The notes under the pieces are model-generated. The model saw only the letters and a program-made list of their open reading frames with translations, did no database searches and had not been told where the DNA came from. From positions 1-33,714 of the forward strand of contig CALXFK010000041.1 in NCBI GenBank assembly GCA_944387575.1: 33,714 nucleotides of DNA, written 5' to 3'. The stretch comes from an uncultured Clostridia bacterium (GTDB lineage: Bacteria > Bacillota > Clostridia > Oscillospirales > JAAYOS01). The position numbers and the translations under genes were made by a program. Below, in pieces: positions 5,177 through 28,687 of the stretch (position 1 is the stretch's first letter; each line of letters opens with the position of its first letter).

Positions 5177-5386
5177 GCGGGGACGTAGTCCCTGCTGTTC
5201 CTGCCCGGCTCGTGGCCAAGAGTTGTTTAAACCCACATTTTTATTAAGGGATTGCTCCTTCGTCAGTGGTTCGCAGGCCTCCCGGCATATGCTGGAAGTT
5301 GGAAGCGGTAAAGCTGAAGAGTGCAAACCCACCTGCAGAGTCGTGCAGGTTTTTAAACCGCTCTCACGGCCGTGGCGGGACTCTAC
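5177..5386 (+). ncRNA. ssrS: 6S RNA (SsrS) candidate
   Basis: A non-coding stretch of about 210 bases between a good promoter and tcdA. It folds as 6S RNA should. A closing stem joins the ends: GTAG at 5185-5188 with CTAC at 5383-5386, TCCC 5189-5192 with GGGA 5377-5380, GGCC 5214-5217 with GGCC 5368-5371, AGAG 5219-5222 with CTCT 5361-5364. A large central bubble follows, then an apical stem ending in CCGGC-ATAT-GCTGG (about 5282-5295). The 3' side of the bubble has its own hairpin ACCTGCA/TGCAGGT (5331-5350), as known for 6S RNAs. The place, just upstream of tcdA (yrvM), matches one B. subtilis 6S gene. It would bind sigma-A RNA polymerase holoenzyme and damp transcription in stationary phase. 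Exact ends are inferred. Confidence 0.75.
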
Positions 5387-11387: not shown

Positions 11388-12137
11388 TCACACAGAACTG
11401 TCGGCATACTTCACACCGGTCATGTACAGCCCGCACGCGGGAAGCGTTGGTCCCGCATCCTGCCGTCTCCCTCCGAGAAGCAGGCGGCTGACATCATCCG
11501 CCATGAGCTTTCTCTCCGATACATACAAAAGCGTACCGGCTATCGCGCGCGCCATGTTGTACAGAAACCCATTTGCTGCGACACATATGCTCACAAACTC
11601 CCCGTCCTTCAGCACCTCGCAGCGATAGACGGTCCGGACGGTGGTTTTAACGTTCGAACCGACCGAGCGCAGCGCCGCAAAATCGTGCTCACCTACCATC
11701 CGCTCCGCCGCTTCGCGCATCCGCTCAATATCGGGGGTGCGGGGATAGAAGTAGGCGCGGTTGACACTGAACGGGTCGTGTATCTTTCCTGGGTGAATGA
11801 GATATGTGTACTCCTTTTCCACCGCAGAAAATGTGGCGTGAAAATCGTATGGCACGTCTCTTGCAGAGAGTATCGCAATATCACGTGGCAGCCGCGCATT
11901 TATGGCATATGGCAGGCGTTCCGATGGGATCCTGCACTCGGAGCGAAAATTCGCCACGTATGTCCGTGCATGCACCCCCGCATCTGTCCTTCCGCAACCC
12001 ACAAGGGTTATCTGCTGCCCCACCGCGCCCTCGATAGCGTCTGACACTGTCCGGGACACGGTCACCGCATTCTTCTGTTCCTGCCATCCGTGATAATTTG
12101 TTCCGTCGTAGGCAAGCCTGAGCGCGATATTCCTCAC
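11388..12137 (-). CDS. truA: tRNA pseudouridine(38-40) synthase
   Basis: A 249-residue pseudouridine synthase that modifies positions 38-40 of the tRNA anticodon arm. It begins RNIALRLAYDGTNYHGWQ and carries the catalytic motif GCGRTDAGVHA, with Asp52 as the nucleophile. The start is a GTG at 12137 that overlaps the ecfT stop (GTGA), with GGAG 7 bases upstream; the longer open frame to 12281 lies inside ecfT and is rejected. The ecfA1-ecfA2-ecfT-truA order is a widely conserved Firmicutes arrangement, which supports both calls. Confidence 0.95.
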   Translation of the reverse strand: MRNIALRLAYDGTNYHGWQEQKNAVTVSRTVSDAIEGAVGQQITLVGCGRTDAGVHARTYVANFRSECRIPSERLPYAINARLPRDIAILSARDVPYDFHATFSAVEKEYTYLIHPGKIHDPFSVNRAYFYPRTPDIERMREAAERMVGEHDFAALRSVGSNVKTTVRTVYRCEVLKDGEFVSICVAANGFLYNMARAIAGTLLYVSERKLMADDVSRLLLGGRRQDAGPTLPACGLYMTGVKYADSSV

Positions 12138-12949
12138 GAGATCACTCCGATACCAAACAAATCGAAAAGCACAACCGCCGCCACCAGCAGAACAAATGCA
12201 GCGGCGCCATATGCATCCACCCTCGAAAACCGCAATACGCGCAGCCGGGTACGCCCCTCTCCGCCGCGGTAACACCGGCACTCCATCGCCACAGCCAGTT
12301 CGTCCGCACGGCGGAACGCACTGATGAACAGCGGGACAAGCAGCGGGACAAGCGCCTTTGCGCGCTGGAATATGTTCCCGCTCTCGAAATCCGCGCCACG
12401 CGCTTTCTGCGCACTCATTATCTTATCGGTTTCTTCGATGAGAGTCGGGATAAACCGGAGCGCTATCGTCATCATCATCGCGAGCTCATGCGCAGGCACC
12501 TTTATCCGCTTGAGCGGCGTGAGCAGCCGCTCTATGCCATCAGTGAGCAGTATGGGCGATGTGGTGTATGTGAGAAGAAACGTGCCGGTAATGAGCAGGA
12601 TTATACGCACCACCATGAATATCGCAGTGACAAGTCCCTGCTTCGTTATCGTGAATATCCAGAAAGAGAACAACTCGTCCCCTTGTGTATAGAACAGGTT
12701 GAGTATCGCAGTCACCACGATAACGAAAATCAGCGGTTTCATGCCCTTCATCGCGACCTTCGGGTTTATCCGTGAGACCACCATCGCTGTTCCGAGGAAC
12801 ACGAGCACCGCCGCATACGCTGCCACGCCCTCCGCAATGAACAGTACGACTATATATCCGATAGTGAGCAGTATTTTGGTTCTGGGGTCCATCCGGTGAA
12901 CCGGGCTATGCCCCGGAAAATACTGACCAAGAGTAATATCCCTAAGCAT
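12134..12949 (-). CDS. ecfT: ECF transporter transmembrane component EcfT
   Basis: A 271-residue membrane protein that couples the two ATPases to an exchangeable substrate-binding S protein. It has the N-terminal pattern HSPVHRMDPRTKI, several membrane segments, and the two cytoplasmic coupling-helix signatures, seen here as KARGAD and ECRCYRG. The start at 12949 has GGGAGGTG 6 bases upstream; the open frame continues to a GTG at 12958 that is less likely. It overlaps ecfA2 by 8 bases and truA by 3. No S component is encoded here, so this is a shared (group II) energising module for vitamins or metals whose S proteins lie elsewhere. Confidence 0.94.
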   Translation of the reverse strand: MLRDITLGQYFPGHSPVHRMDPRTKILLTIGYIVVLFIAEGVAAYAAVLVFLGTAMVVSRINPKVAMKGMKPLIFVIVVTAILNLFYTQGDELFSFWIFTITKQGLVTAIFMVVRIILLITGTFLLTYTTSPILLTDGIERLLTPLKRIKVPAHELAMMMTIALRFIPTLIEETDKIMSAQKARGADFESGNIFQRAKALVPLLVPLFISAFRRADELAVAMECRCYRGGEGRTRLRVLRFSRVDAYGAAAFVLLVAAVVLFDLFGIGVIS

Positions 12950-13817
12950 TCGGAACACCTCCCGCCGCGCCGTTTTTCAGCCGTGTGAGCTGCCGTACAG
13001 CCTCCTCAACAGTATAGGTCGCAGGGTCTATGTCCACACCGAGCTCACGCAGTCTCATACACACCCGTGTTATCTGCGGCACGGCAAGCCCCGCGCTCTG
13101 AAGTTCCTCCGCGCGAGAGAACACCTCGGCGGGCGTACCCTGCATAAAGACATGCGCCCCGTTCATCACCACAAGGCGCTCGGCATACCTCGCCGCGTCC
13201 TCCATGCTGTGAGTTACAAGCAACACCGCTGACCCTGTATTGCTGCGGTATTCCGCGATACGCGATAGGATCTCGTCCCGCCCACGCGGGTCGAGACCGG
13301 CGGTCGGCTCATCGAGTATCAGCGCCTCGGGGCGCATCGCGATTATACCCGCAATAGCCACCCTTCTCCTCTGCCCCCCGGACAGTTCGAACGGCGACTT
13401 CTCGAGAAGCTCCTCGTCGATACCGACGAAGCTCGCTGCCTCCCGCACCCGCTCCTTCAGCTCGTCCTCCGCAAGACCCATGTTCTTGGGACCAAACGCT
13501 ATGTCCTTGCCCACCGTCTCCTCGAAGAGCTGGTACTCCGGGTACTGGAATACTAGCCCCACCTTGAAACGCACCTTTCGCACGTCACTTTTCTCGTCCC
13601 AGATGTTCTTCTCATCAAAGTACACCGCGCCGCCGTCCGGCTTGAGCAGTCCGTTGAGGTGCTGAATGAGCGTGCTTTTTCCGCTGCCGGTATGCCCGAT
13701 GAGCGCGACAAACTCCCCCCGCTCCATCGCGAAGGATACGCTGTCCAGCGCAACATGTTCAAACGGCGTGCCTTTACCGTAAATATGCGTAAGATTTTCG
13801 CATCTAAGTATCGACAT
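12942..13817 (-). CDS. ecfA2: ECF transporter ATPase EcfA2
   Basis: A 291-residue ABC ATPase of the vitamin/cobalt energy-coupling class. Walker A GHTGSGKST is at residues 41-49, the Q-loop follows VGLVFQYPEYQLF, the signature LSGGQ is at 145-149, and Walker B LILDEP at 166-171. The FQYPEYQLFEETV segment and an N-terminal motif with GTPFEHVALDSVSF are typical of EcfA2. The ATG overlaps the ecfA1 stop (TAATG), with AAGGAAAG before it; the upstream extension to 13862 is rejected. Confidence 0.94.
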   Translation of the reverse strand: MSILRCENLTHIYGKGTPFEHVALDSVSFAMERGEFVALIGHTGSGKSTLIQHLNGLLKPDGGAVYFDEKNIWDEKSDVRKVRFKVGLVFQYPEYQLFEETVGKDIAFGPKNMGLAEDELKERVREAASFVGIDEELLEKSPFELSGGQRRRVAIAGIIAMRPEALILDEPTAGLDPRGRDEILSRIAEYRSNTGSAVLLVTHSMEDAARYAERLVVMNGAHVFMQGTPAEVFSRAEELQSAGLAVPQITRVCMRLRELGVDIDPATYTVEEAVRQLTRLKNGAAGGVPNA

Positions 13818-14671
13818 TACACTTTCCTTCCAGCAAACAGAGCACTCACCGCCTGCGCGCACTCCTCAACATCCAGACAGTTGAGCGGCAGGTCAAACCC
13901 CTTTTGACGAAGCGAGTACGCAAGCTCGACCGTCTGCGGCACCGCAAGACCCACCGATCGCAGTAGCTCAATCTCGGTAAAGACCGACTTCGGCGGTCCA
14001 TCCGCAATTATCTTTCCGCTATCCATAACGACCACGCGCGCACAACGCGCAGCCTCGTCCATGTGATGGGTTATAAGTACAATAGTGACGCCACTCTCTC
14101 TGTTCAATGCGGATATCGTGCGCATGACTTCCTCTCGTCCGGTTGGGTCGAGCATTGCGGTAGGCTCATCGAGCACTATGCACTCTGGCTTCATTGCAAG
14201 GATGCCCGCTATCGCTACCCGCTGTTTCTGACCGCCCGAAAGGCGGTGCGGCGCATGTTCGCGGTATCCGTACATCCCAACGGTACGCAGCGCATCATTG
14301 ACACGTTCGCGTATCTCCGCGCTCGGTACGCCAAGGTTTTCCGGTCCGAACGCGACGTCCTCCTCCACTATGTTCGCAACTATCTGATTATCCGGATTCT
14401 GGAACACCATCCCGACCCTACGACGTATCTCGTAGAGCAGTTCCTCGTCGGCGGTGGACATCCCATCGACATACACCGTACCTCCGGCTGGCAGAAGGAT
14501 GGCGTTAAAGTGCTTAGCGAGGGTACTCTTCCCCGAGCCGTTGTGACCAAGCACAGCGACAAACTCGCCGCGGTCTATCTCGAGCGAGAGCGACTCGAAT
14601 ACCTTCACCGGTCCTCTATCCGAGTCATATACGAAATCCAGATCCTCAACGCGAAGTAATGCGTCCTTCAC
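13817..14671 (-). CDS. ecfA1: ECF transporter ATPase EcfA1
   Basis: A 284-residue ABC ATPase, partner of EcfA2. Walker A LGHNGSGKST is near residues 41-50, the Q-loop is GMVFQNPDNQIV, the signature LSGGQ is at 144-148, and Walker B IVLDEP near 165-170. The FQNPDNQIVANIVEEDVAFGPEN region is diagnostic of EcfA1. The chosen start is the GTG at 14671, preceded by GGGGGTG with 5-base spacing; an ATG at 14689 lacks a close ribosome binding site. It begins the ecfA1-ecfA2-ecfT-truA block, 43 bases after the methyltransferase gene. Confidence 0.93.
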   Translation of the reverse strand: MKDALLRVEDLDFVYDSDRGPVKVFESLSLEIDRGEFVAVLGHNGSGKSTLAKHFNAILLPAGGTVYVDGMSTADEELLYEIRRRVGMVFQNPDNQIVANIVEEDVAFGPENLGVPSAEIRERVNDALRTVGMYGYREHAPHRLSGGQKQRVAIAGILAMKPECIVLDEPTAMLDPTGREEVMRTISALNRESGVTIVLITHHMDEAARCARVVVMDSGKIIADGPPKSVFTEIELLRSVGLAVPQTVELAYSLRQKGFDLPLNCLDVEECAQAVSALFAGRKV

Positions 14672-14714
14672 AGGCGCACCCCCATTCATAGTAGTGGTAG
14701 TGAACTCCCCAAAC

Positions 14715-15596
14715 TCAGCCTGCGACCCAACGCCCCGCCGCGCCGCAGGGCAACGCAAGACCGGTGACGCTCACCGGCAGCCCAAGCTCGCCACATTCCG
14801 CCGTACCTCCGAACCGGGGCGCAAGCACCGAGTTCAGCACATACGACAGAACCGACGGCGCAAGTCCGGTCGTATACGAATTTATAATAAAGAACAGCGG
14901 CTTCGCACTCAATACCTGTGCGCAGAGCTCTACAAGCGAATACAGACCCTCCTCGAGCCTCCAGACCTCGCCGGAAGGACCCCTGCCGTATGACGGAGGG
15001 TCCATTATCACCGCATCATAGCGCACCCCGCGTCTGATCTCCCGTTGCACGAATTTGAAACAGTCGTCCACTATCCAGCGCACCGGACGATCCGCAAGAC
15101 CGCTGCGCGCCGCGTTCTCCTTGCCCCACGCAACCATACCACGCGCCGCATCCACATGGCAGACCCGCGCCCCCGCGGCTGCCGCCGCGACCGTCGCCGC
15201 TCCGGTGTATGCGAACAGGTTGAGCACGCTCACCTCACGTGATGGGTCCCGCGCAGCCTGTCCGTGTATCTGTTCCATGATAAAGTCCCAATTTGCAGCC
15301 TGCTCCGGGAACACTCCGGTGTGCTTGAAGTTCATCGGTTTTATGCCAAACCTCAGCTCCCGGTAACCGATCTCCCAACTCTCATCTGGTATGCTGAACT
15401 TCTCCCAGTGCCCGCCACCGCTCTTGGAGCGGATATACCGCCCGTCGGGACAGTCCCACCGAGGATCGGAGCTCCCGCGCGCCCATATCGCCTGCGGGTC
15501 GGGACGGACAAGGCACACATTTCCCCAGCGCTCGAGGCGCTCTCCTCCACCGCAGTCTATAAGCTCATAGTCGCGCCATCCGTCACTCAACCACAT
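14715..15596 (-). CDS. class I SAM-dependent methyltransferase, RlmI/RlmK-like
   Basis: A 293-residue Rossmann-fold methyltransferase. Motif I is NLFAYTGAATVAAAAAG (about 126-142), preceded by the GVFPEQAANW substrate/loop motif (95-104); the catalytic-region motif is MDPPSYGRG (198-206). This combination is typical of the 23S rRNA m5C methyltransferase-like group (RlmI and relatives), though it lacks an N-terminal PUA domain and the exact target is not known. It follows metK after 20 bases, so a SAM synthetase and a SAM consumer are cotranscribed. Confidence 0.8.
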   Translation of the reverse strand: MWLSDGWRDYELIDCGGGERLERWGNVCLVRPDPQAIWARGSSDPRWDCPDGRYIRSKSGGGHWEKFSIPDESWEIGYRELRFGIKPMNFKHTGVFPEQAANWDFIMEQIHGQAARDPSREVSVLNLFAYTGAATVAAAAAGARVCHVDAARGMVAWGKENAARSGLADRPVRWIVDDCFKFVQREIRRGVRYDAVIMDPPSYGRGPSGEVWRLEEGLYSLVELCAQVLSAKPLFFIINSYTTGLAPSVLSYVLNSVLAPRFGGTAECGELGLPVSVTGLALPCGAAGRWVAG

Positions 15597-20744: not shown

Positions 20745-21713
20745 ATGCACAGAAAGCTGTCCTGCGCACTGCTCACCCTGTTAATTCTCGTCACTGCCGT
20801 CCTCTCTGTCTCGTGTTCATCCCCCGCCCCCTCCGAAAGTCCGGACTCCGGTTCGGACACGTATACATTCACCGATGACCTCGGACGGGAGGTCACGGTC
20901 GTCTCGACCGAGCGCACTGCTGCACTGCTCGGCAGCTTTGCGGATATATGGTACCTTGCAGGGGGCGAAATCTGTGCGACCGCCGATGACGCATGGGACG
21001 ACCTGAACCTGCCGCTGCCGGACGATGCGATAAACCTTGGCATGACAAAGTCGATAAGCCTTGAGCAGCTCCTGCTCGCCGACCCGACCTTCGTGCTCGC
21101 AAGCGCCAACACGCAGGGTAATATTGACATAATGGACACGCTCGAAGCAGCGGGGATCCCGGTCGCGTATTTCGACGTGAACAACTTTGACGACTATCTT
21201 CGCGTACTCAAGACCTGTACCGAGCTCACCGGTCGCGACGACCTGTATGAGCAGAACGGCACCGACGTTGCGGAGCAGATAGAGGCGGTCAAGGCGGCGA
21301 GCGCCGAGCGCATCGAGGGCGATGGTACCGCGCCAAAAGTGCTCAGCCTTCGCGCCTCCGCGTCCTGGATACGCGCAAAGGGCAGCAGCGGCAACGTCCT
21401 CGGGGAAATGCTTGCCGACCTCGGCTGCATCAACATTGCAGACAGCGACGAGTCTCTACTCGAGAGCATAGGCATGGAACATATAATTGCCCAAGACCCT
21501 GATTTCGTATTTTTTGTCCCACAAGGTGGGGATCCGGACGGGATACAGGCTGCCATAGACGAGTTCATTTCGGAAAACCCCGCGTGGGCGGAGCTACGCG
21601 CCGTAAAGAACGACAACGTGTTCTTGCTCGACAAGCAGCTCTACTCGCTCAAGCCGAACGCACGCTGGGGCGAGGCATATGAGAAACTTGAGGCGATCCT
21701 TGCAGATGAATAA
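20745..21713 (+). CDS. ABC transporter substrate-binding lipoprotein (iron-siderophore/cobalamin class)
   Basis: A 322-residue secreted lipoprotein. The N-terminus is a signal peptide with a lipobox-like LSVSC (modified Cys24), then a Ser/Pro-rich tether, then a TroA/BtuF-type two-lobe fold opening with TFTDDLGREVTVV. It is the capture protein for the permease and ATPase encoded next. GGAGG lies 6 bases before the ATG. It follows the acyl-CoA synthetase after 53 bases with no terminator, so read-through from the HTH-cupin promoter is possible. The ligand (ferric siderophore, heme or corrinoid) cannot be decided here. Confidence 0.88.
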   Translation: MHRKLSCALLTLLILVTAVLSVSCSSPAPSESPDSGSDTYTFTDDLGREVTVVSTERTAALLGSFADIWYLAGGEICATADDAWDDLNLPLPDDAINLGMTKSISLEQLLLADPTFVLASANTQGNIDIMDTLEAAGIPVAYFDVNNFDDYLRVLKTCTELTGRDDLYEQNGTDVAEQIEAVKAASAERIEGDGTAPKVLSLRASASWIRAKGSSGNVLGEMLADLGCINIADSDESLLESIGMEHIIAQDPDFVFFVPQGGDPDGIQAAIDEFISENPAWAELRAVKNDNVFLLDKQLYSLKPNARWGEAYEKLEAILADE

Positions 21714-22698
21714 AAGCCACGCTGCACTGCGTTTTATTTTAACCGGATCACTGCTGATAGCGGCGGTCCTGCTCAGCTTGTGCGTCGGCAGTTCGGGGCT
21801 CACCCTCTCAGAGCTTTTCAGCGCCATTGCAAACGGACCAGTCGACGTCGCAGGTCGCATATTCTGGTACGCGCGGCTCCCACGCACCGCCGCGTGTGTT
21901 CTCGCCGGAGCGGCGCTTGCCGTATCCGGCGCAGTTATTCAAGGGGTTCTTGCAAACAAGCTCGCCTCGCCCGGCATAATCGGCGTCAACGCCGGTTCGG
22001 GTCTTGCGGTGACTATATGCTGCGCCGTGGGCGCGCTCTCTGGATGGGTTGTCGCGGGTGCAGCGTTTGCAGGGGCGCTTATAGCCGTGATGACGGTGGT
22101 GCTCGCTGCGCAGAAACTGCGTGCCTCAAAGACGGTAGTAGTGCTCGGCGGGGTCGCGTTGAACAGTTGTCTCAGCGCAGCATCCGAGGCAATAACCGTG
22201 CTCGTGCCCGACGCGGGGGTGCAGGCAGCGGATTTCCGCATGGGCGGGTTCTCGTCGGTTGCGCACACCCGGCTTATTCCGGCAGGGATAATGATAATCG
22301 CTGCACTTGCGGTGATTTTTACCCTTTTGAATGAGCTCGAAGTTCTATCGCTCGGCGAGGACTCGGCACAGGGGCTTGGTCTGCCTGCCCGCAGGATGCG
22401 CACGATACTTCTCGGGCTTGCGGCGCTTCTTGCCGGTTCGGCAGTGAGCTTCGCAGGACTCCTCGGCTTTGTCGGTCTAATAGTTCCACACATGGCGCGT
22501 CGTATAATGCCGGGTGGCAGCAACCGTCTCATTCCGTTCTGCGCGATTGGAGGTGCGGCGCTCGTCACGCTGTGTGACCTTCTCTCGCGCACCCTCTTCT
22601 CGCCACACGAGATCCCGGCTGGTATACCCCTTGCATTCATCGGGGGTCCAGTGTTCATTCTGCTTCTCGTAAAGAGCCGGAGGGAGGAGAGCGAATGA
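21706..22698 (+). CDS. FecCD-type ABC transporter permease
   Basis: A 330-residue membrane protein of the FecCD/BtuC family with about nine or ten membrane segments. Family features include YARLPRTAACVLAGAALAVSGAVIQGVLANKLASPGIIGVNAGSGL near the N-terminus and GFVGLIVPHMARRI in the coupling region. The ATG at 21706 overlaps the lipoprotein stop by 8 bases; another in-frame ATG at 21679, with GAGG upstream, would add nine residues. A single permease gene implies a homodimer. Confidence 0.9.
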   Translation: MNKSHAALRFILTGSLLIAAVLLSLCVGSSGLTLSELFSAIANGPVDVAGRIFWYARLPRTAACVLAGAALAVSGAVIQGVLANKLASPGIIGVNAGSGLAVTICCAVGALSGWVVAGAAFAGALIAVMTVVLAAQKLRASKTVVVLGGVALNSCLSAASEAITVLVPDAGVQAADFRMGGFSSVAHTRLIPAGIMIIAALAVIFTLLNELEVLSLGEDSAQGLGLPARRMRTILLGLAALLAGSAVSFAGLLGFVGLIVPHMARRIMPGGSNRLIPFCAIGGAALVTLCDLLSRTLFSPHEIPAGIPLAFIGGPVFILLLVKSRREESE

Positions 22699-23474
22699 TA
22701 GTTTTGCACGACCTGTGTGCCGGGTATGGCAGCCGCGAGATACTCCACTCGGTAAACGCGACTTTTGAAAACGGAAAGGTCACCGCGCTTATCGGCCCGA
22801 ACGGATGCGGTAAGAGCACCCTTCTCAAGACGGTCGTACAGATAATCCGCCCGATGTCCGGGCAGGTGCTGATAGACGGGAAGCCCGCATCTGAGCTCAG
22901 TCCGATTGAGCTTGCACGCAGGGCGGCATACCTTCCGCAGAGCCGCCCGGTCCCCGAAATAACAGCGCTGCGCATGGTGCTGCACGGTCGGTTCTCTCAC
23001 CTGCACTACCCCCGTCGTTACCGCAGTGAGGACTACGCCGCGGCGGAGGAAGCACTTCGCTGGGCAGGTATGGAGGAGTACGCGCAACAGAGCATGACGA
23101 GCATGTCCGGAGGTATGCGGCAGAAGATATACATCGCTGCCGCGCTGGCGCAGGATGCCGGTGCGGTACTCATGGATGAGCCGACCACCCATCTCGATAT
23201 CTCGCACCAGCTTTTAGTTCTGGACACCGCACGCAGGCTCGCAGAAGGCGGGCGGGCGGTAATTCTCGTGTTACATGACCTGTCGCAGGCGCTTCGGACA
23301 GCGGACAGCGTACTGCTTCTCTCTAAAGGCGAGGTCGCGTACTGCGGCACTCCACACGACGTATACCGCAGCGGTGTGCTGGACGATGTGTTCGGCGTAC
23401 ACATCGAGCAGGTTCTCACCCGGTCGGGCGCGCACTATGTATGTTCAGCGCGCGGCGATACTCGCAGCGGTTAA
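22695..23474 (+). CDS. ABC transporter ATPase (FepC/BtuD class)
   Basis: A 259-residue ATPase energising the FecCD permease. Walker A GPNGCGKST is at 34-42, the Q-loop is in AAYLPQSRPVP, the signature is MSGG (137-140, Met replacing the usual Leu) and Walker B with catalytic Glu is VLMDEPTTHLD (158-168). The LHDLSQAL switch histidine is present. The start overlaps the permease stop (ATGA). It is the last gene of the operon; a fresh promoter follows within a few bases. Confidence 0.92.
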   Translation: MIVLHDLCAGYGSREILHSVNATFENGKVTALIGPNGCGKSTLLKTVVQIIRPMSGQVLIDGKPASELSPIELARRAAYLPQSRPVPEITALRMVLHGRFSHLHYPRRYRSEDYAAAEEALRWAGMEEYAQQSMTSMSGGMRQKIYIAAALAQDAGAVLMDEPTTHLDISHQLLVLDTARRLAEGGRAVILVLHDLSQALRTADSVLLLSKGEVAYCGTPHDVYRSGVLDDVFGVHIEQVLTRSGAHYVCSARGDTRSG

Positions 23475-23477
23475 CGA

Positions 23478-23506
23478 TTGACACCGGAGACAAGCTGGTT
23501 TACAAT
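23478..23506 (+). promoter_or_regulatory. near-consensus promoter for the reductase-like gene
   Basis: A perfect TTGACA (23478-23483), a 17-base spacer and TACAAT (23501-23506) lie just after the ATPase stop. A small leader hairpin, GCGGG-TATCT-CCCGC (23523-23537), follows before GGAGGTG and the ATG at 23578. Confidence 0.8.
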
Positions 23507-23577
23507 TTAACTGTCATGTACTGCGGGTATCTCCCGCGTATGTTCAGTCCAAAATAAAACGGAGGTGTGTCCAGACT

Positions 23578-24498
23578 ATGGCATGCACAATAAGCCCTGA
23601 GGAAATCAAGCGGGTAAAGGGACTTGGATTTCTCATCAATCGCGGCACAGACCTGTTCAACGCGCGCATAATCACTGTCAATGGCAAGATAACCGCTGCG
23701 CAGACACGGAAAATCGCGGAGGCTGCCGAGAAGTTCGGAAACGGTGAGGTTGAGTTTACCGTCCGCATGACCGTCGAGGTCCGCGGCATTCACTTCAACG
23801 ATATCGAACCGTTCCGCGAGTTCATTGCGGAAGCCGGGCTCGAGACCGGCGGTACCGGTGCACTTGTTCGCCCGGTCGTTTCCTGCAAGGGTACCACCTG
23901 CCAGTATGGTCTGTATGACACATTTGCACTCTCCGAGAAGATACACGAGCGCTTCTATCTCGGTTACCGCAAGGTCGCGCTGCCGCACAAGTTCAAGATT
24001 GCGACCGGCGGCTGCCCCAATAACTGTGTCAAACCCGACCTCAACGACGCTGGCGTCGTCGGTCAGCGCATTGTGAAGCTGGACGAGGAGAAGTGCCGTG
24101 GATGCCGTAAGTGCCAGATAGAGGCGCTCTGCCCGATGAAGGCGGCAAAAGTATCTGACGGCATTCTCACCATTGACCGTGACCTCTGCAACAACTGCGG
24201 CAGATGCTATGGGAAGTGCCCGTTTGGCGCTATGGAGAACGCCACACTCGGCTACAAACTCTACCTCGGCGGACGCTGGGGCAAGCGCGCCGAGCGCGGC
24301 AACCCGCTCAAGAAGATATTCACCTCCGAAAGCGAACTTCTCGACGCAATAGAGAGCGCGATACTCCTCTTCCGCGAGCAGGGCAACGCCGGAGAGAGGT
24401 TCGCGGACACCATTATCCGTCTCGGCTTCGAAAACGTCGAGCGTCAAATAGTCTCAGGCGAACTTCTCGCACGCAAGGACAAGATAATCCAGGGCTAA
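23578..24498 (+). CDS. sulfite/nitrite reductase-like protein with two [4Fe-4S] ferredoxin clusters
   Basis: A 306-residue cytosolic protein resembling small dissimilatory sulfite-reductase-like proteins. Residues ~1-90 form a ferredoxin-like half domain, followed by a siroheme/[4Fe-4S]-type cysteine set: SCKGTTCQ (Cys103, Cys108) and GGCPNNC (Cys146, Cys150). Two ferredoxin motifs are inserted after it: Cys173/176/179/185 and Cys204/207/210/214. The first siroheme pair is C-X4-C whereas assimilatory and dissimilatory reductases use C-X5-C, so cofactor and substrate may differ. It has its own strong promoter and a strong terminator, hence is monocistronic. Likely an electron-transfer reductase; substrate (sulfite, nitrite or other) unknown. 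Confidence 0.8.
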   Translation: MACTISPEEIKRVKGLGFLINRGTDLFNARIITVNGKITAAQTRKIAEAAEKFGNGEVEFTVRMTVEVRGIHFNDIEPFREFIAEAGLETGGTGALVRPVVSCKGTTCQYGLYDTFALSEKIHERFYLGYRKVALPHKFKIATGGCPNNCVKPDLNDAGVVGQRIVKLDEEKCRGCRKCQIEALCPMKAAKVSDGILTIDRDLCNNCGRCYGKCPFGAMENATLGYKLYLGGRWGKRAERGNPLKKIFTSESELLDAIESAILLFREQGNAGERFADTIIRLGFENVERQIVSGELLARKDKIIQG

Positions 24499-24602
24499 GA
24501 CAGCTTAGTTTCCGACGTTGATATTACAAACGCGGTAAAAAAGATTTCCCTTACATTCTCGATTCACATCTTATGCCCGCATTACACAAAAAATATTACC
24601 TA

Positions 24603-24638
24603 CCAGCGAAAAACCTCGTCGTTTTTCGCTGGTTTTTT
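24603..24638 (+). terminator. strong intrinsic terminator
   Basis: A perfect 12-bp stem (CCAGCGAAAAAC 24603-24614 with GTTTTTCGCTGG 24621-24632), a CTCGTC loop and six T residues (24633-24638). It ends the reductase-like transcript. The rest of the AT-rich 24499-24847 gap holds only this and the promoter below. Confidence 0.92.
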
Positions 24639-24847: not shown

Positions 24848-25408
24848 ATGAAAATTTTTATTGCTTCAGACATACACGGTTCCGCCTTCTACTGCAAGAA
24901 GATGCTCGAGGCGTACCACCGCGAGTGCGCAGACAAACTGCTCCTGCTTGGAGACATTCTTTACCACGGTCCACGCAACGACCTGCCGGAGGGATATAAC
25001 CCCCGCGAGGTATGCGCGATGCTCAATGCGGTCGCGGGCGACATCCTATGTGTGCGCGGCAACTGCGACAGCGATGTCGACCAGATGGTGCTTGAGTTCC
25101 CGATAATGGCTGACTATTGCCTCGTCTGCTCAGGCGACCTTGCAGTGTTTGCCACCCATGGTCACGTCTACAACACCTCCTCCCTGCCCCCGCTGGGCGC
25201 GGTAAATATACTGCTGCACGGGCACACCCACATCCCGGTCTGCGAGCAGCACGAGAATTTTGTGTATATGAACCCCGGTTCGGTCTCTCTTCCCAAGGAG
25301 GGTTCAAATCACGGGTATATGATTGCCGAGAACGGCGTGTTTGAATGGAAAACCCTTGACGGAACGGTGTACCGCCGCTATCCTCTCCCGGACGGCGACG
25401 ACCAATGA
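24848..25408 (+). CDS. YfcE-type metallophosphodiesterase
   Basis: A 186-residue calcineurin-like phosphoesterase. Metal-binding motifs of the YfcE/MJ0936 class are all present: DIH (Asp8, His10), GD (Asp36), GNCD (Asn72), ATHGH (His104) and HGHTH (124-128), then MNPGS. Family members hydrolyse phosphodiesters in vitro; the natural substrate is not known. The ATG at 24848 is used; a TTG at 24839 is an alternative. Its stop overlaps the LysR start (ATGA), so the two are translationally coupled. The driving promoter is the best consensus match in the window. Confidence 0.9.
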   Translation: MKIFIASDIHGSAFYCKKMLEAYHRECADKLLLLGDILYHGPRNDLPEGYNPREVCAMLNAVAGDILCVRGNCDSDVDQMVLEFPIMADYCLVCSGDLAVFATHGHVYNTSSLPPLGAVNILLHGHTHIPVCEQHENFVYMNPGSVSLPKEGSNHGYMIAENGVFEWKTLDGTVYRRYPLPDGDDQ

Positions 25409-26343
25409 ACCTGCAACATCTGAAATATGCGGTCGAGGTCGCCCGCCTCGGCTCGATAAATAAGGCGTCAGACGTGTTGTTTGTGGGTCAGCCAAACCTC
25501 AGCCGTGCGATAAAGGACCTCGAGGCACACCTCGGAATCACCATTTTTGACCGCTCCGCAAAGGGGATGGTCCCCACCCCCGAGGGGGAGGATTTTCTCC
25601 AGTATGCGCGCGGCATCCTGCGTCAGGTCGACGAGGTCGAAGCCATCTACCGCGTTGGCGTTCCGACAAAGAGGCGTTTTTCGATATCGGTGCCCCGCGC
25701 AAGCTATATAAGCGAGGCGTTCGCGCAGTTCTCGCGCTCGCTCGACGACGACCCGGCGGAGCTCTTCTACATGGAGACCAACTCCTCTACCGCCATCAGC
25801 AACATACTTCAGGCGGATTACCGGCTCGGGATAATCAGATACGCCGACAACCACGAGCGCAACTTTGCTGCAATGCTCGATGAGAAGGGGCTTGACCACG
25901 AACTTGTCGCCGAGTTCCACTACATGCTTCTCATGAGCCGCAAAAGTCCTCTGGCTTCCGCGAGTGAGATATCATTTTCCGATCTTTTGCCACATATAGA
26001 GGTCGCACACGCCGACCCGTTCGTCCCATCGATACCCGCCGTCTCCACGCGTAAGTCCGAGATCCCTGCCGCACCAACACGGCGTATATACGTATTTGAG
26101 CGCGGCAGCCAGTTTGACATTCTCTCTGAAAACCCCGACACTTTCATGTGGGTCTCCCCGGTCCCTCAAAAACTTCTCGACCGGTACGGACTCATCCAGC
26201 GCTGGTGTCCAGACAACAGCGGTCTGCACCGTGATGTGCTCATACGTCGAAAGGAGTATAAATTTACCGACCTCGACAGCACATTCATCGCAAAGCTCTT
26301 TGAGGCAAAACGCACCTATCTTGACAGCATTCAGCGGTCCTGA
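25405..26343 (+). CDS. LysR family transcriptional regulator
   Basis: A 312-residue regulator. Residues 1-60 form the winged helix-turn-helix (LKYAVEVARLGSINKASDVLFVGQPNLSRAIKDLE), followed by a linker helix and a periplasmic-binding-protein-like effector domain from about residue 90. The start overlaps the phosphodiesterase stop. Only 116 bases separate its end from nfnA, with the same orientation, so nfnAB is the obvious candidate target, though autoregulation of its own operon is also possible. Effector unknown. Confidence 0.9.
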   Translation: MNLQHLKYAVEVARLGSINKASDVLFVGQPNLSRAIKDLEAHLGITIFDRSAKGMVPTPEGEDFLQYARGILRQVDEVEAIYRVGVPTKRRFSISVPRASYISEAFAQFSRSLDDDPAELFYMETNSSTAISNILQADYRLGIIRYADNHERNFAAMLDEKGLDHELVAEFHYMLLMSRKSPLASASEISFSDLLPHIEVAHADPFVPSIPAVSTRKSEIPAAPTRRIYVFERGSQFDILSENPDTFMWVSPVPQKLLDRYGLIQRWCPDNSGLHRDVLIRRKEYKFTDLDSTFIAKLFEAKRTYLDSIQRS

Positions 26344-26459: not shown

Positions 26460-27299
26460 ATGTACAGAATACTAGAAAAAAAGCGTCTAAACCCCACCGT
26501 CACACTGATGCGCGTGGAGGCACCGCTCGTCGCGGCGAAGGCGGAGCCGGGTCAGTTCATAATTCTCCGCGTCGATGCGGACGGGGAGCGTATACCGCTC
26601 ACTGTTGCGGATTTCGATCGCGATTCCGGCAGCGTAACAATAATATTCCAAGTCGTCGGTGCGACAACCGAGAAGCTCAACCACCTCGAGCAGGGCGATT
26701 TCATACACGATTTCGTCGGACCTCTTGGACGCCCTACCCACACGGACGGGCTGAAAAAGGTAGCGGTCGTCGGCGGCGGTGTTGGATGCGCGATTGCGTT
26801 TCCGGTGGCAAAGAAGCTCTTTGAGCAGGGCTGTGAGGTCCACTCGATTGCCGGCTTTCGCAGCCGTGACCTTGTCATCCTCGAGGACGAATTTGCCGCT
26901 AACTCCACACGCTTCGTGCGCATGAGCGACGATGGTACATGGGGGGAGAAGGGTCTCGTCACCGACGCGCTGCGCAAGCTCATCGAGAGCGGCGAAAAGT
27001 ACGACGAGGTTATAACCATTGGTCCGCTCGTCATGATGAAGTTCGTCTGCGCGCTCACCCGCGAGTTCGGCATCAAGACGGTAGCGAGCATGAACCCGAT
27101 AATGATAGATGGCACCGGCATGTGCGGCGGCTGCCGCCTCACCGTCGGCGGAAAGACAAAGTTTGCGTGCGTGGACGGTCCTGAGTTCGACGGTCACGAG
27201 ATCGATTTCGACGAAGCTATTGCCCGCAGCAGCACTTATCGCGATTTCGAGCGTCACGCGTATGAAGAGACCTGCAATCTGTTCGAGGAGGCAAAATAA
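26460..27299 (+). CDS. nfnA: NfnA/SudB-type FAD/NAD-binding subunit of electron-bifurcating transhydrogenase
   Basis: A 279-residue flavoprotein of the ferredoxin-NADP reductase superfamily. It has an N-terminal FAD-binding beta barrel (GQFIILRV, IPLTVAD), an NAD-binding domain (VAVVGGGVGCA, 101-111) and a C-terminal [2Fe-2S] site with MCGGC (Cys222, Cys225) and Cys237 in KTKFAC. Together with the next gene it forms the NfnAB complex that couples NADH- and ferredoxin-linked electrons to NADP+. AAGGAG precedes the ATG, and its stop overlaps the nfnB start (TAATG). A dihydroorotate dehydrogenase electron-transfer subunit is similar, but the partner gene decides for Nfn. Confidence 0.93.
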   Translation: MYRILEKKRLNPTVTLMRVEAPLVAAKAEPGQFIILRVDADGERIPLTVADFDRDSGSVTIIFQVVGATTEKLNHLEQGDFIHDFVGPLGRPTHTDGLKKVAVVGGGVGCAIAFPVAKKLFEQGCEVHSIAGFRSRDLVILEDEFAANSTRFVRMSDDGTWGEKGLVTDALRKLIESGEKYDEVITIGPLVMMKFVCALTREFGIKTVASMNPIMIDGTGMCGGCRLTVGGKTKFACVDGPEFDGHEIDFDEAIARSSTYRDFERHAYEETCNLFEEAK

Positions 27300-28687
27300 T
27301 GGCTAACATGTCTCTGAAAAAGAATCCGATGCCCTCGCAGCCACCCGAGGTGCGCAACCGAAATTTTAGCGAGGTCGCGCTAGGTTACGACGAAAAGACG
27401 GCTATCGACGAGGCACAGCGCTGCCTGAACTGCAAAAACAAGCCGTGTGTTTCGAGCTGCCCGGTCTGCATAGATATCCCCGCATTCATACATAAGGTCG
27501 CCGAGGGCGACTTCGAATCCGCATACCAAATAATCGCCAAGTCCAGCTCGCTTCCCGCGGTCTGCGGACGTGTCTGTCCCCAGGAAAACCAGTGCGAGGG
27601 AAAGTGCGTGCGTGGTATCAAGGGAGAACCGGTCGGCATAGGCAGACTTGAGCGGTTCGTCGCCGACTGGCACAATGCGCATTCCACCGAGAAGCCGGTG
27701 CGCCCCAAGTCCAACGGTCACAAGGTCGCAGTCATCGGTTCCGGTCCGTCCGGGCTCACCTGCGCGGGAGACCTCGCAAAGCTCGGCTATCAGGTCACCG
27801 TATTTGAAGCCCTACACGTAGCGGGCGGAGTGCTCGTGTACGGCATCCCCGAGTTCCGCCTGCCGAAAGCCATCGTTCAGAAAGAGATAGACTCGCTTGC
27901 CGCGCTCGGCGTCGACATCCAGACAAACGTCGTCGTCGGCAAAACGATCACCGTCGATGAGCTGCTCGATAAGGGATACGAGGCCGTGTTCATCGGCAGC
28001 GGCGCGGGTCTGCCCAAATTCATGAACATCCCGGGCGAAAACCTCAAGGGAGTGTACTCGGCAAACGAGTTCCTCACCCGCATCAACCTCATGAAGGCAT
28101 ACCTGCCCGAGAGCGACACCCCAGTCCAGCAAGCAAAGCAAGTGGTCGTGGTCGGCGGAGGAAACGTCGCAATGGATGCCGCTCGATGCGCAAAACGTCT
28201 CGGCGCAGATGTGAGCATAGTCTACCGCCGCACCGAAGCCGAACTCCCCGCAAGGCGCGAGGAGGTCGAACATGCGATGGAAGAGGGCATCGTCTTCCAG
28301 TTTCTCACCAATCCCGTCGCCATTCACGGTGGCGAGAGCGGTTTTGTCTCCTCCATTACCTGCCAGCGGATGGCTCTCGGCGAGCCGGACGCGTCCGGTC
28401 GCGCCCGCCCCGTCCCACAGGAAGGAAGCGAGTTCGATATTGAAGCGGACTGCGTCATTATGGCACTCGGCACCTCTCCCAACCCGCTCATCCGCGACAC
28501 TACAAGCGGTCTCGACACCGAGCGCTGGGGCGGTATAATCGTAGAGGAGGAGACCGGTCTCACCTCCCGCGAGGGCGTATACGCCGGAGGTGACGCCGTC
28601 ACCGGAGCAGCGACCGTCATCCTCGCAATGGGCGCGGGAAAGACTGCCGCCGCCGCCATTGACCGGAAGATCCGCGGAGAGAACTGA
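27299..28687 (+). CDS. nfnB: NfnB (GltA-type glutamate-synthase-like) subunit of transhydrogenase
   Basis: A 462-residue flavoprotein often annotated as glutamate synthase (NADPH) small subunit. Two [4Fe-4S] clusters sit at the N-terminus (Cys42/45/50/54 and Cys89/93/99/103). Then come the FAD-binding GSGPSGLTCAGDLA (147-160), the NADPH-binding GGGNVAMDAARCAKRLGA and the C-terminal FAD motif VYAGGDAVTGAATVILAMGAG. No glutamate synthase large subunit is nearby and nfnA overlaps it, so the bifurcating transhydrogenase role is much more likely. It catalyses reversible NADH plus reduced ferredoxin to NADPH. Confidence 0.94.
   Translation: MANMSLKKNPMPSQPPEVRNRNFSEVALGYDEKTAIDEAQRCLNCKNKPCVSSCPVCIDIPAFIHKVAEGDFESAYQIIAKSSSLPAVCGRVCPQENQCEGKCVRGIKGEPVGIGRLERFVADWHNAHSTEKPVRPKSNGHKVAVIGSGPSGLTCAGDLAKLGYQVTVFEALHVAGGVLVYGIPEFRLPKAIVQKEIDSLAALGVDIQTNVVVGKTITVDELLDKGYEAVFIGSGAGLPKFMNIPGENLKGVYSANEFLTRINLMKAYLPESDTPVQQAKQVVVVGGGNVAMDAARCAKRLGADVSIVYRRTEAELPARREEVEHAMEEGIVFQFLTNPVAIHGGESGFVSSITCQRMALGEPDASGRARPVPQEGSEFDIEADCVIMALGTSPNPLIRDTTSGLDTERWGGIIVEEETGLTSREGVYAGGDAVTGAATVILAMGAGKTAAAAIDRKIRGEN

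Follow-up and report, generated by a model that had tools for sequence, protein, structure and literature searches.

The locus raises the question of which cofactor and substrate a small reductase uses when its first cysteine pair is one residue closer than is usual and, if the cofactor is siroheme, where its host obtains it. Siroheme is usually seen as a cofactor made by its own user. In the genome from which the analysed 33,714-nucleotide stretch of DNA (the window) derives (87.9% complete), neither hemC, the gene for porphobilinogen deaminase, nor sirC was found. With no hemC found, a state it shares with two thirds of the sampled carriers of this reductase, the host is expected to be incapable of tetrapyrrole synthesis. 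The reductase gene and its cysteine motifs lie in the window as follows:

23578..24498, + strand: predicted siroheme-type sulfite reductase (group-III Dsr-like protein), 306 aa, assigned by Pfam, PDB and AlphaFold
23884..23901, + strand: C103-X4-C108 (CKGTTC), the first two cysteines at the siroheme-coupled [4Fe-4S] site, aligned to C428 and C434 of F420-dependent sulfite reductase (Fsr); a family trait
24013..24027, + strand: C146-X3-C150 (CPNNC), with C150 aligned to Cys472, which bridges to siroheme in Fsr
24094..24132, + strand: first ferredoxin-type [4Fe-4S] motif, CX2CX2CX5C (C173-C185), by sequence and Pfam
24187..24219, + strand: second ferredoxin-type [4Fe-4S] motif, CX2CX2CX3C (C204-C214), by sequence and Pfam

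The description of the product as reductase-like, made in an earlier sequence-only reading, was borne out by its domains and fold. The protein combines NIR_SIR (93.9 bits) and NIR_SIR_ferr (50.9 bits) domains, each above its Pfam gathering score, with an inserted dicluster ferredoxin domain. The top PDB match was Fsr, in its C-terminal half (7np8; E 2.6e-36), and a fold search with an AlphaFold2 model (mean pLDDT 91.4, from an alignment of 48 sequences, modelled without cofactors) returned Fsr chains as all of its top five PDB matches (TM 0.74-0.76). By sequence and modelled fold, the window protein is best described as a group-III Dsr-like sulfite reductase nearest to Fsr. With the C-terminal half of Fsr (7np8/7npa) it shares the fold, the inserted two-cluster ferredoxin domain, the sulfite-binding Arg/Lys residues and an aSir-type arginine, whereas Fsr has an N-terminal F420H2-oxidase half, a domain absent from the 306 residues of the window protein, and CX5C in place of C-X4-C. 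Group III Dsr-LPs, AsrC included, are characterized in the consulted portion of PMC3448663 by a siroheme motif, a peripheral and an additional [4Fe-4S] cluster, and four Arg/Lys. The window reductase likewise has two extra [4Fe-4S] sites besides its siroheme motif, and by these features it is predicted to be of the group III type with four Arg/Lys; it differs from the group in its C-X4-C and in scoring below the NCBIfam cut-off for AsrC. AsrC (TIGR02912) was nonetheless its best NCBIfam match (94.5 versus a cut-off of 324.1 bits), and none of the listed NCBIfam sulfite and nitrite reductase models reached its own cut-off. Membership of AsrC, DsrAB, NirB or CysI was rejected on these curated cut-offs.

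To compare the active site with that of Fsr, the residue numbering given in the available part of PMC10229431 was used. R98, K138 and K140 align with the sulfite-binding R423, K460 and K462, and R30, which is invariant in the A1 alignment, corresponds to R355 by position only, as it lies beyond the aligned stretch; the four sulfite-binding Arg/Lys are thus present, three by alignment and one by position. R63 aligns with R388 of Fsr, described in the same part of PMC10229431 as an assimilatory trait. In our alignments the substrate and cysteine residues are identical between reductases from genomes with and without hemC, and no new cofactor pocket is therefore indicated. We infer that siroheme is the cofactor of the window reductase and sulfite its substrate.

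Re-reading the codons at 23884-23901 (TGC AAG GGT ACC ACC TGC) gave C-K-G-T-T-C, which confirmed the C-X4-C spacing of the sequence-only reading and sets the protein apart from the strict CX5C-Xn-CX3C cluster motif; the second pair was correctly given as C-X3-C. That reading also called both ferredoxin motifs intact, which holds for the second, a canonical CX2CX2CX3C, and not for the first, in which two extra residues precede the last cysteine. A scan of 84,980 species genomes revealed at least 579 relatives, and the best 80 of these at least 579 were kept as a named set; these 80 come from Bacillota, mostly Clostridia with many Lachnospiraceae and one Erysipelotrichaceae, or from unclassified bacteria. 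Among 157 homologous loci, C-X4-C was found in 155 (80 from the named set and 75 others, partly non-independent, as L111/L148 and L121/L150, whose contigs match in length, seem to be the same genomes present in both sets), so that it is not a chance event or sequencing slip, and the proposal that it marks a subfamily held up. The remaining two (G068 and G033, with 36% and 31% identity to the window protein) are C-X5-C outgroups. The motif reads CKGTTC in 140 of the 155 loci, CKGTVC in 7, CKATTC in 3, CKGSTC in 3 and CKGTYC in 1, and the last locus (G425) has CKATTC downstream of an in-frame stop. What had appeared as an oddity is a common family trait. The portion of PMC8351635 at hand gives both CX4CXnCX3C and CX5CXnCX3C as canonical siroheme motifs; DsrB has still another spacing, CXnCCX3C (PMC10229431, same part). 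C-X4-C is a known tolerated variant, here fixed and one residue shorter than the usual cluster loop, and as such is no evidence for a new cofactor. Three loci (L071, L072 and L077) encode, some 3-4 kb from the C-X4-C reductase, a second and larger protein with a siroheme-type C-X5-C (512-529 aa, CIGASIC).

The genes that surround the reductase in its relatives point to siroheme and sulfur metabolism. At least two of sirC, hemA, hemC/D-cobA, hemB and hemL lie within 9 kb of it in 13/80 named-set loci, and siroheme-synthesis genes adjoin it in 3/75 of the other C-X4-C loci (G254, G257 and G272). A Ruminococcus bromii cluster places a sulfite reductase with hemA-cysG-hemC-cysG-hemB-hemL, according to the accessible text of PMC6378601. 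A CoA-disulfide reductase-rhodanese protein is fused to the reductase in 35/155 loci and lies within 3 kb in 53/155, a LysR gene is near 58/155 and a YeiH-type permease gene near 21/155. The domains of neighbouring genes were tested on representatives only: the one LysR representative scored best with the selenium-metabolism LysR and YeiE models, below the cut-off of both, and the rhodanese domain had a Pfam match in the fused L107 protein and none in the separate L068 protein, while a rhodanese-like cysteine loop is kept in 78/90 of the CoA-disulfide reductase-rhodanese proteins. In Salmonella, yeiH is under the control of YeiE and serves sulfite resistance, as stated in the part of PMC12880088 consulted.

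In L107 (7363-9945) and 34 further loci, CoA-disulfide reductase, rhodanese and sulfite reductase form a single chain of ~860 aa. Such a chain could link the cleavage of thiosulfate or persulfide to sulfite reduction, the rhodanese freeing sulfite and the reductase consuming it, an idea that concerns the relatives, as the partner is absent beside the window reductase. We take the partner proteins to be CoADR-Rhd/Npsr, with which they share the domain pair; the difference is that in 35/155 related loci the pair is joined to a sulfite reductase, and the window locus is without it. In open-licence PubMed Central, no publication was found that treats coenzyme A disulfide reductase, rhodanese and sulfite reductase together. 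A NirA fused to rhodanese, a different arrangement, is reported for Halobacteria in the excerpt of PMC11237513.

This context bears on two other views of the reductase. The sequence-only reading had suggested a different cofactor or substrate, and if the shorter loop excluded siroheme, both the fixation of C-X4-C and the lack of hemC in most sampled carriers would be accommodated. However, siroheme-synthesis genes sit beside members that share C-X4-C, CX4C is published as a siroheme motif (PMC8351635, in the portion cited above), and hemC is exchanged for an importer across genomes, as described below; on the first two of these grounds we rejected another cofactor due to the short loop, which we regard as very improbable. 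The suggestion as a whole finds no support, given the retained sulfite-binding residues, the Fsr fold and the siroheme-synthesis, YeiH and LysR genes near relatives. The protein might instead be mainly a nitrite (or hydroxylamine) reductase, given that Fsr also reduces nitrite (PMC10229431, part consulted) and that nitrite reductases match the window protein, at lower scores, but the sulfur genes that adjoin its relatives in the numbers given above make this unlikely.

Having assigned siroheme to the reductase with this degree of caution, we turn to its supply. The following features precede and follow the gene:

20745..21713, + strand: importer substrate-binding protein, class III (Peripla_BP_2, Pfam 94.9 bits), with a lipoprotein-like start; member of the reductase-linked family A3
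21679..22698, + strand: importer permease (FecCD, Pfam 270.3 bits)
22695..23474, + strand: importer ATPase (ABC_tran, Pfam 103.6 bits)
23478..23506, + strand: sigma-70-like promoter, TTGACA-17-TACAAT, between importer and reductase; 11/12 consensus bases, a consensus match only
24602..24633, + strand: terminator-like hairpin 3' of the reductase; weak, such sites being no commoner than in shuffles

Directly upstream of the reductase, positions 20745-23474 encode a FecBCD-type ABC importer. Its three components, namely the class III binding protein, the permease of the FecCD type and the ATPase, are those also found in IsdEF, BtuCDF and FeuABC. None of the listed curated NCBIfam models for heme, B12 or siderophore uptake reached its cut-off (for the ATPase, among the best 25 matches): IsdE (TIGR03659) scored 60.5 versus 298.65 bits, BtuC (NF003001) 191.7 versus 334 bits, and the FecE-, corrinoid- and heme-type matches of the ATPase were all below theirs. 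The promoter-like site and the terminator-like hairpin are each, alone, no evidence of function; as the former lies between the importer and the reductase, we do not claim a single transcript. The reductase leader contains a hairpin (23510-23548) and has a folding z-score of -2.4, and regulation there is possible.

What distinguishes this importer from IsdEF, BtuCDF and FeuABC is that its presence tracks the combination of reductase present and hemC absent. Two samples were analyzed, one of the order (117 genomes, 28 with the C-X4-C reductase and 12 with hemC) and one of the class (391 genomes, 56 with the reductase and 85 with hemC above the cut-off), which combined gave 75 carriers, 25 with hemC and 50 without; the C-X5-C outgroups G033 and G068 were left out of these counts. 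Importers were called genome-wide with profile A3, made from 36 reductase-linked binding proteins, 30 of them from sampled genomes; a score of at least 229 bits was required in the order sample and of at least 310 bits in the class sample, where G222 was counted from a match split into parts of 177 and 165 bits. This revealed an importer in 46/50 carriers without hemC versus 0/25 with it, where the 46/50 is partly by construction, since 30 of the 46 importers sat in the profile, and the zeros are unaffected. The other 16 were outside the profile, and 8 of them lie on other stretches than the reductase, which are all such cases among the 46 (G034, G066, G185, G201, G216, G288, G360 and G425). 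The reductase is close to a contig end in G201, G216, G288 and G425, so that the distance there is indefinite. An importer gene lies within 5 kb of the reductase in 38/50 carriers without hemC versus 0/25 with it (Fisher p 3.5e-11), and in 30/36 versus 0/22 of the loci with both flanks of at least 3.5 kb.

The same pattern was obtained from each sample. In the order sample, 17/117 genomes had an A3 match of at least 229 bits, the next best being 102; none of the 17 has hemC, and the reductase is of the C-X4-C kind in 16 of them and of the C-X5-C kind in G033. The importer was detected in 0/12 genomes with hemC and in 0/84 that lack hemC and show no reductase matching the window protein at 1e-20. 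In the class sample it was present in 34/36 carriers without hemC and 0/20 with it. In the remaining 335 genomes of the class sample, which gave no reductase match at 1e-70 (a threshold that missed a 40% relative in G259), 4 importers scored at least 345 bits and another 9 genomes scored 224-334 bits, with A3 scores in other genomes declining gradually from 446 without a gap. Within a single genus, G104 has hemC and no importer was found in it, while G062 has the importer and no hemC was found. The reductase tree (INDEPENDENCE; quick maximum likelihood, 74 reductases and an outgroup) requires at least 15 switches in hemC and at least 14 in the importer; being a gene tree obtained by a brief search, it does not distinguish gains from losses, and it omits G425 and G033, giving 45/49 there versus 46/50 elsewhere. 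In nine independent pairs that differ in hemC on starred branches, the importer differed in the opposite direction in 7.7 on average and in the same direction in none (median p 0.008, range 0.008-0.06).

Some genomes depart from the exchange. Four carriers have neither hemC nor importer (G050, which is 99% complete, G014, G093 and G164), and L136/G539 has hemC together with an adjacent importer. G467, counted as importer-bearing without hemC, encodes a divergent HemC domain below the NCBIfam cut-off that is fused to a tetrapyrrole methylase; recounting it as having hemC changes the result to 45/49 and 1/26. Two genomes without the C-X4-C reductase, G351 and G421, have hemC and importer-family matches (394 and 300 bits). 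Of the 80 named-set genomes, 50 were searched for hemC, chosen mostly for longer flanks: 39/50 have it, one of the 39 (L136) with an adjacent importer, as compared with 6/11 of those without hemC. Importers without a visible reductase occur in G440, at a contig end, and in G250, where sirC is within the importer operon; G144, G224 and G428 bear importers without a C-X4-C reductase at the search threshold, and in G224 a reductase-like fragment (38%) lies ~5 kb away. The importer of G259 directly adjoins a divergent C-X4-C reductase (40%), and that of G174 adjoins a CbiK gene, while ~8 kb away a further gene begins that is 62% identical to a C-X5-C reductase. A divergent branch of the importer lies near TP_methylase genes (L199, L200, L204 and L205 in G245, G196, G366 and G247, hemC not found); its imports may serve as precursors for cobamide synthesis, and the wider family may carry corrinoids.

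From the sequence alone the cargo of the importer is undecidable, as siderophore, heme and B12 binders all match its binding protein. The genomes are more informative. CbiK is a family of sirohydrochlorin chelatases, and SirC and CbiK act on sirohydrochlorin-type rings, not on heme. Of the 46 importer-bearing carriers without hemC, 42 lack SirC, CbiK and CbiX, the three families tested here among those that complete siroheme from its precursors. This points to siroheme itself as the cargo; sirC was found in G090 only and CbiK in G000, G023 and G092 only, there on a separate contig from the importer, and CbiX adds none. Genomes that keep a chelatase or dehydrogenase often have its gene near the importer: CbiK beside it in G033 and G174, and SirC next to it (L054 in G090, L073, L074, L078 and L088) or, in L198, inside its operon. 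The window genome encodes a CbiK-domain protein on contig C28, and as hemC and sirC were not found there, either sirohydrochlorin or siroheme could be what its importer takes up.

We consider it probable, mainly from the distribution of genes, that the locus pairs a siroheme sulfite reductase with a dedicated importer supplying it with siroheme (or sirohydrochlorin) in tetrapyrrole auxotrophs. The FecBCD-type importer would take up siroheme from neighbouring organisms and so load the small single-repeat reductase, which would reduce sulfite to sulfide on its siroheme-[4Fe-4S] centre with electrons arriving via the two ferredoxin-type clusters; where SirC or CbiK is kept, the imported cargo would perhaps be sirohydrochlorin or precorrin-2. 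An importer of ordinary heme, with the reductase or another protein of the auxotrophs using heme instead of siroheme, would suit the presence of 5gj3 (E 5e-8), which we take to be the heme binder RhuT, and IsdE (8.6e-6) among the closest solved structures in a single-sequence PDB search with the binding protein. Yet the IsdE score noted above is far below its cut-off, the substrate and cysteine residues are the same with and without hemC, SirC and CbiK neighbours do not act on heme, and the absence of the importer from 84/84 order-sample genomes lacking both hemC and reductase would be left unexplained; we therefore think heme an unlikely cargo. A ferric siderophore or corrinoid as cargo, with the importer adjoining the reductase through shared iron/sulfur or B12 metabolism, accords with the best PDB match of the A3 profile, the iron-uptake binding protein 2phz (7.3e-22, BtuF being weak), and with the divergent branch near TP_methylase genes, but neither need is tied to having the reductase and lacking hemC, as the observed pattern is, and this too appears improbable. 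A dedicated siroheme or sirohydrochlorin importer fits that pattern, and it is rather likely that gut Clostridia lineages which repeatedly lose tetrapyrrole synthesis keep their siroheme sulfite reductase by gaining such a FecBCD-type importer, which would make siroheme a resource shared across anaerobic communities.

What is new here is the importer with its hemC-opposed phyletic pattern; the reductase belongs to a familiar type, and its motif variant has been described before. In open-licence PubMed Central, no phrase for siroheme uptake, import, transport, salvage or acquisition was found, the 'auxotroph' wording there being fungal only, and neither was literature on sirohydrochlorin uptake or transport or on imported or exogenous siroheme; by their titles and abstract openings, publications on tetrapyrrole precursors, cobamides and ABC transporters do not report siroheme import. 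If siroheme is imported, it would be a new transporter cargo, testable with one binding protein, gut sulfide production and sulfite tolerance would depend on cofactor cross-feeding, and sulfite-reductase genes would not by themselves predict H2S formation.

Further genes of the window were also noted. Downstream of the reductase, a LysR gene (25405-26343) precedes two genes (26460-28687) that resemble a pair of a sulfide/dihydroorotate dehydrogenase-like FAD protein and GltA, presumably Nfn-like, for which electron supply to the reductase is possible. An ECF-type transporter set (CbiQ and two ABC ATPases; 12134-14758, - strand) adjoins a tRNA pseudouridine synthase gene, and a 6S RNA (Rfam RF00013, 84 bits) lies at 5195-5385 on the + strand.
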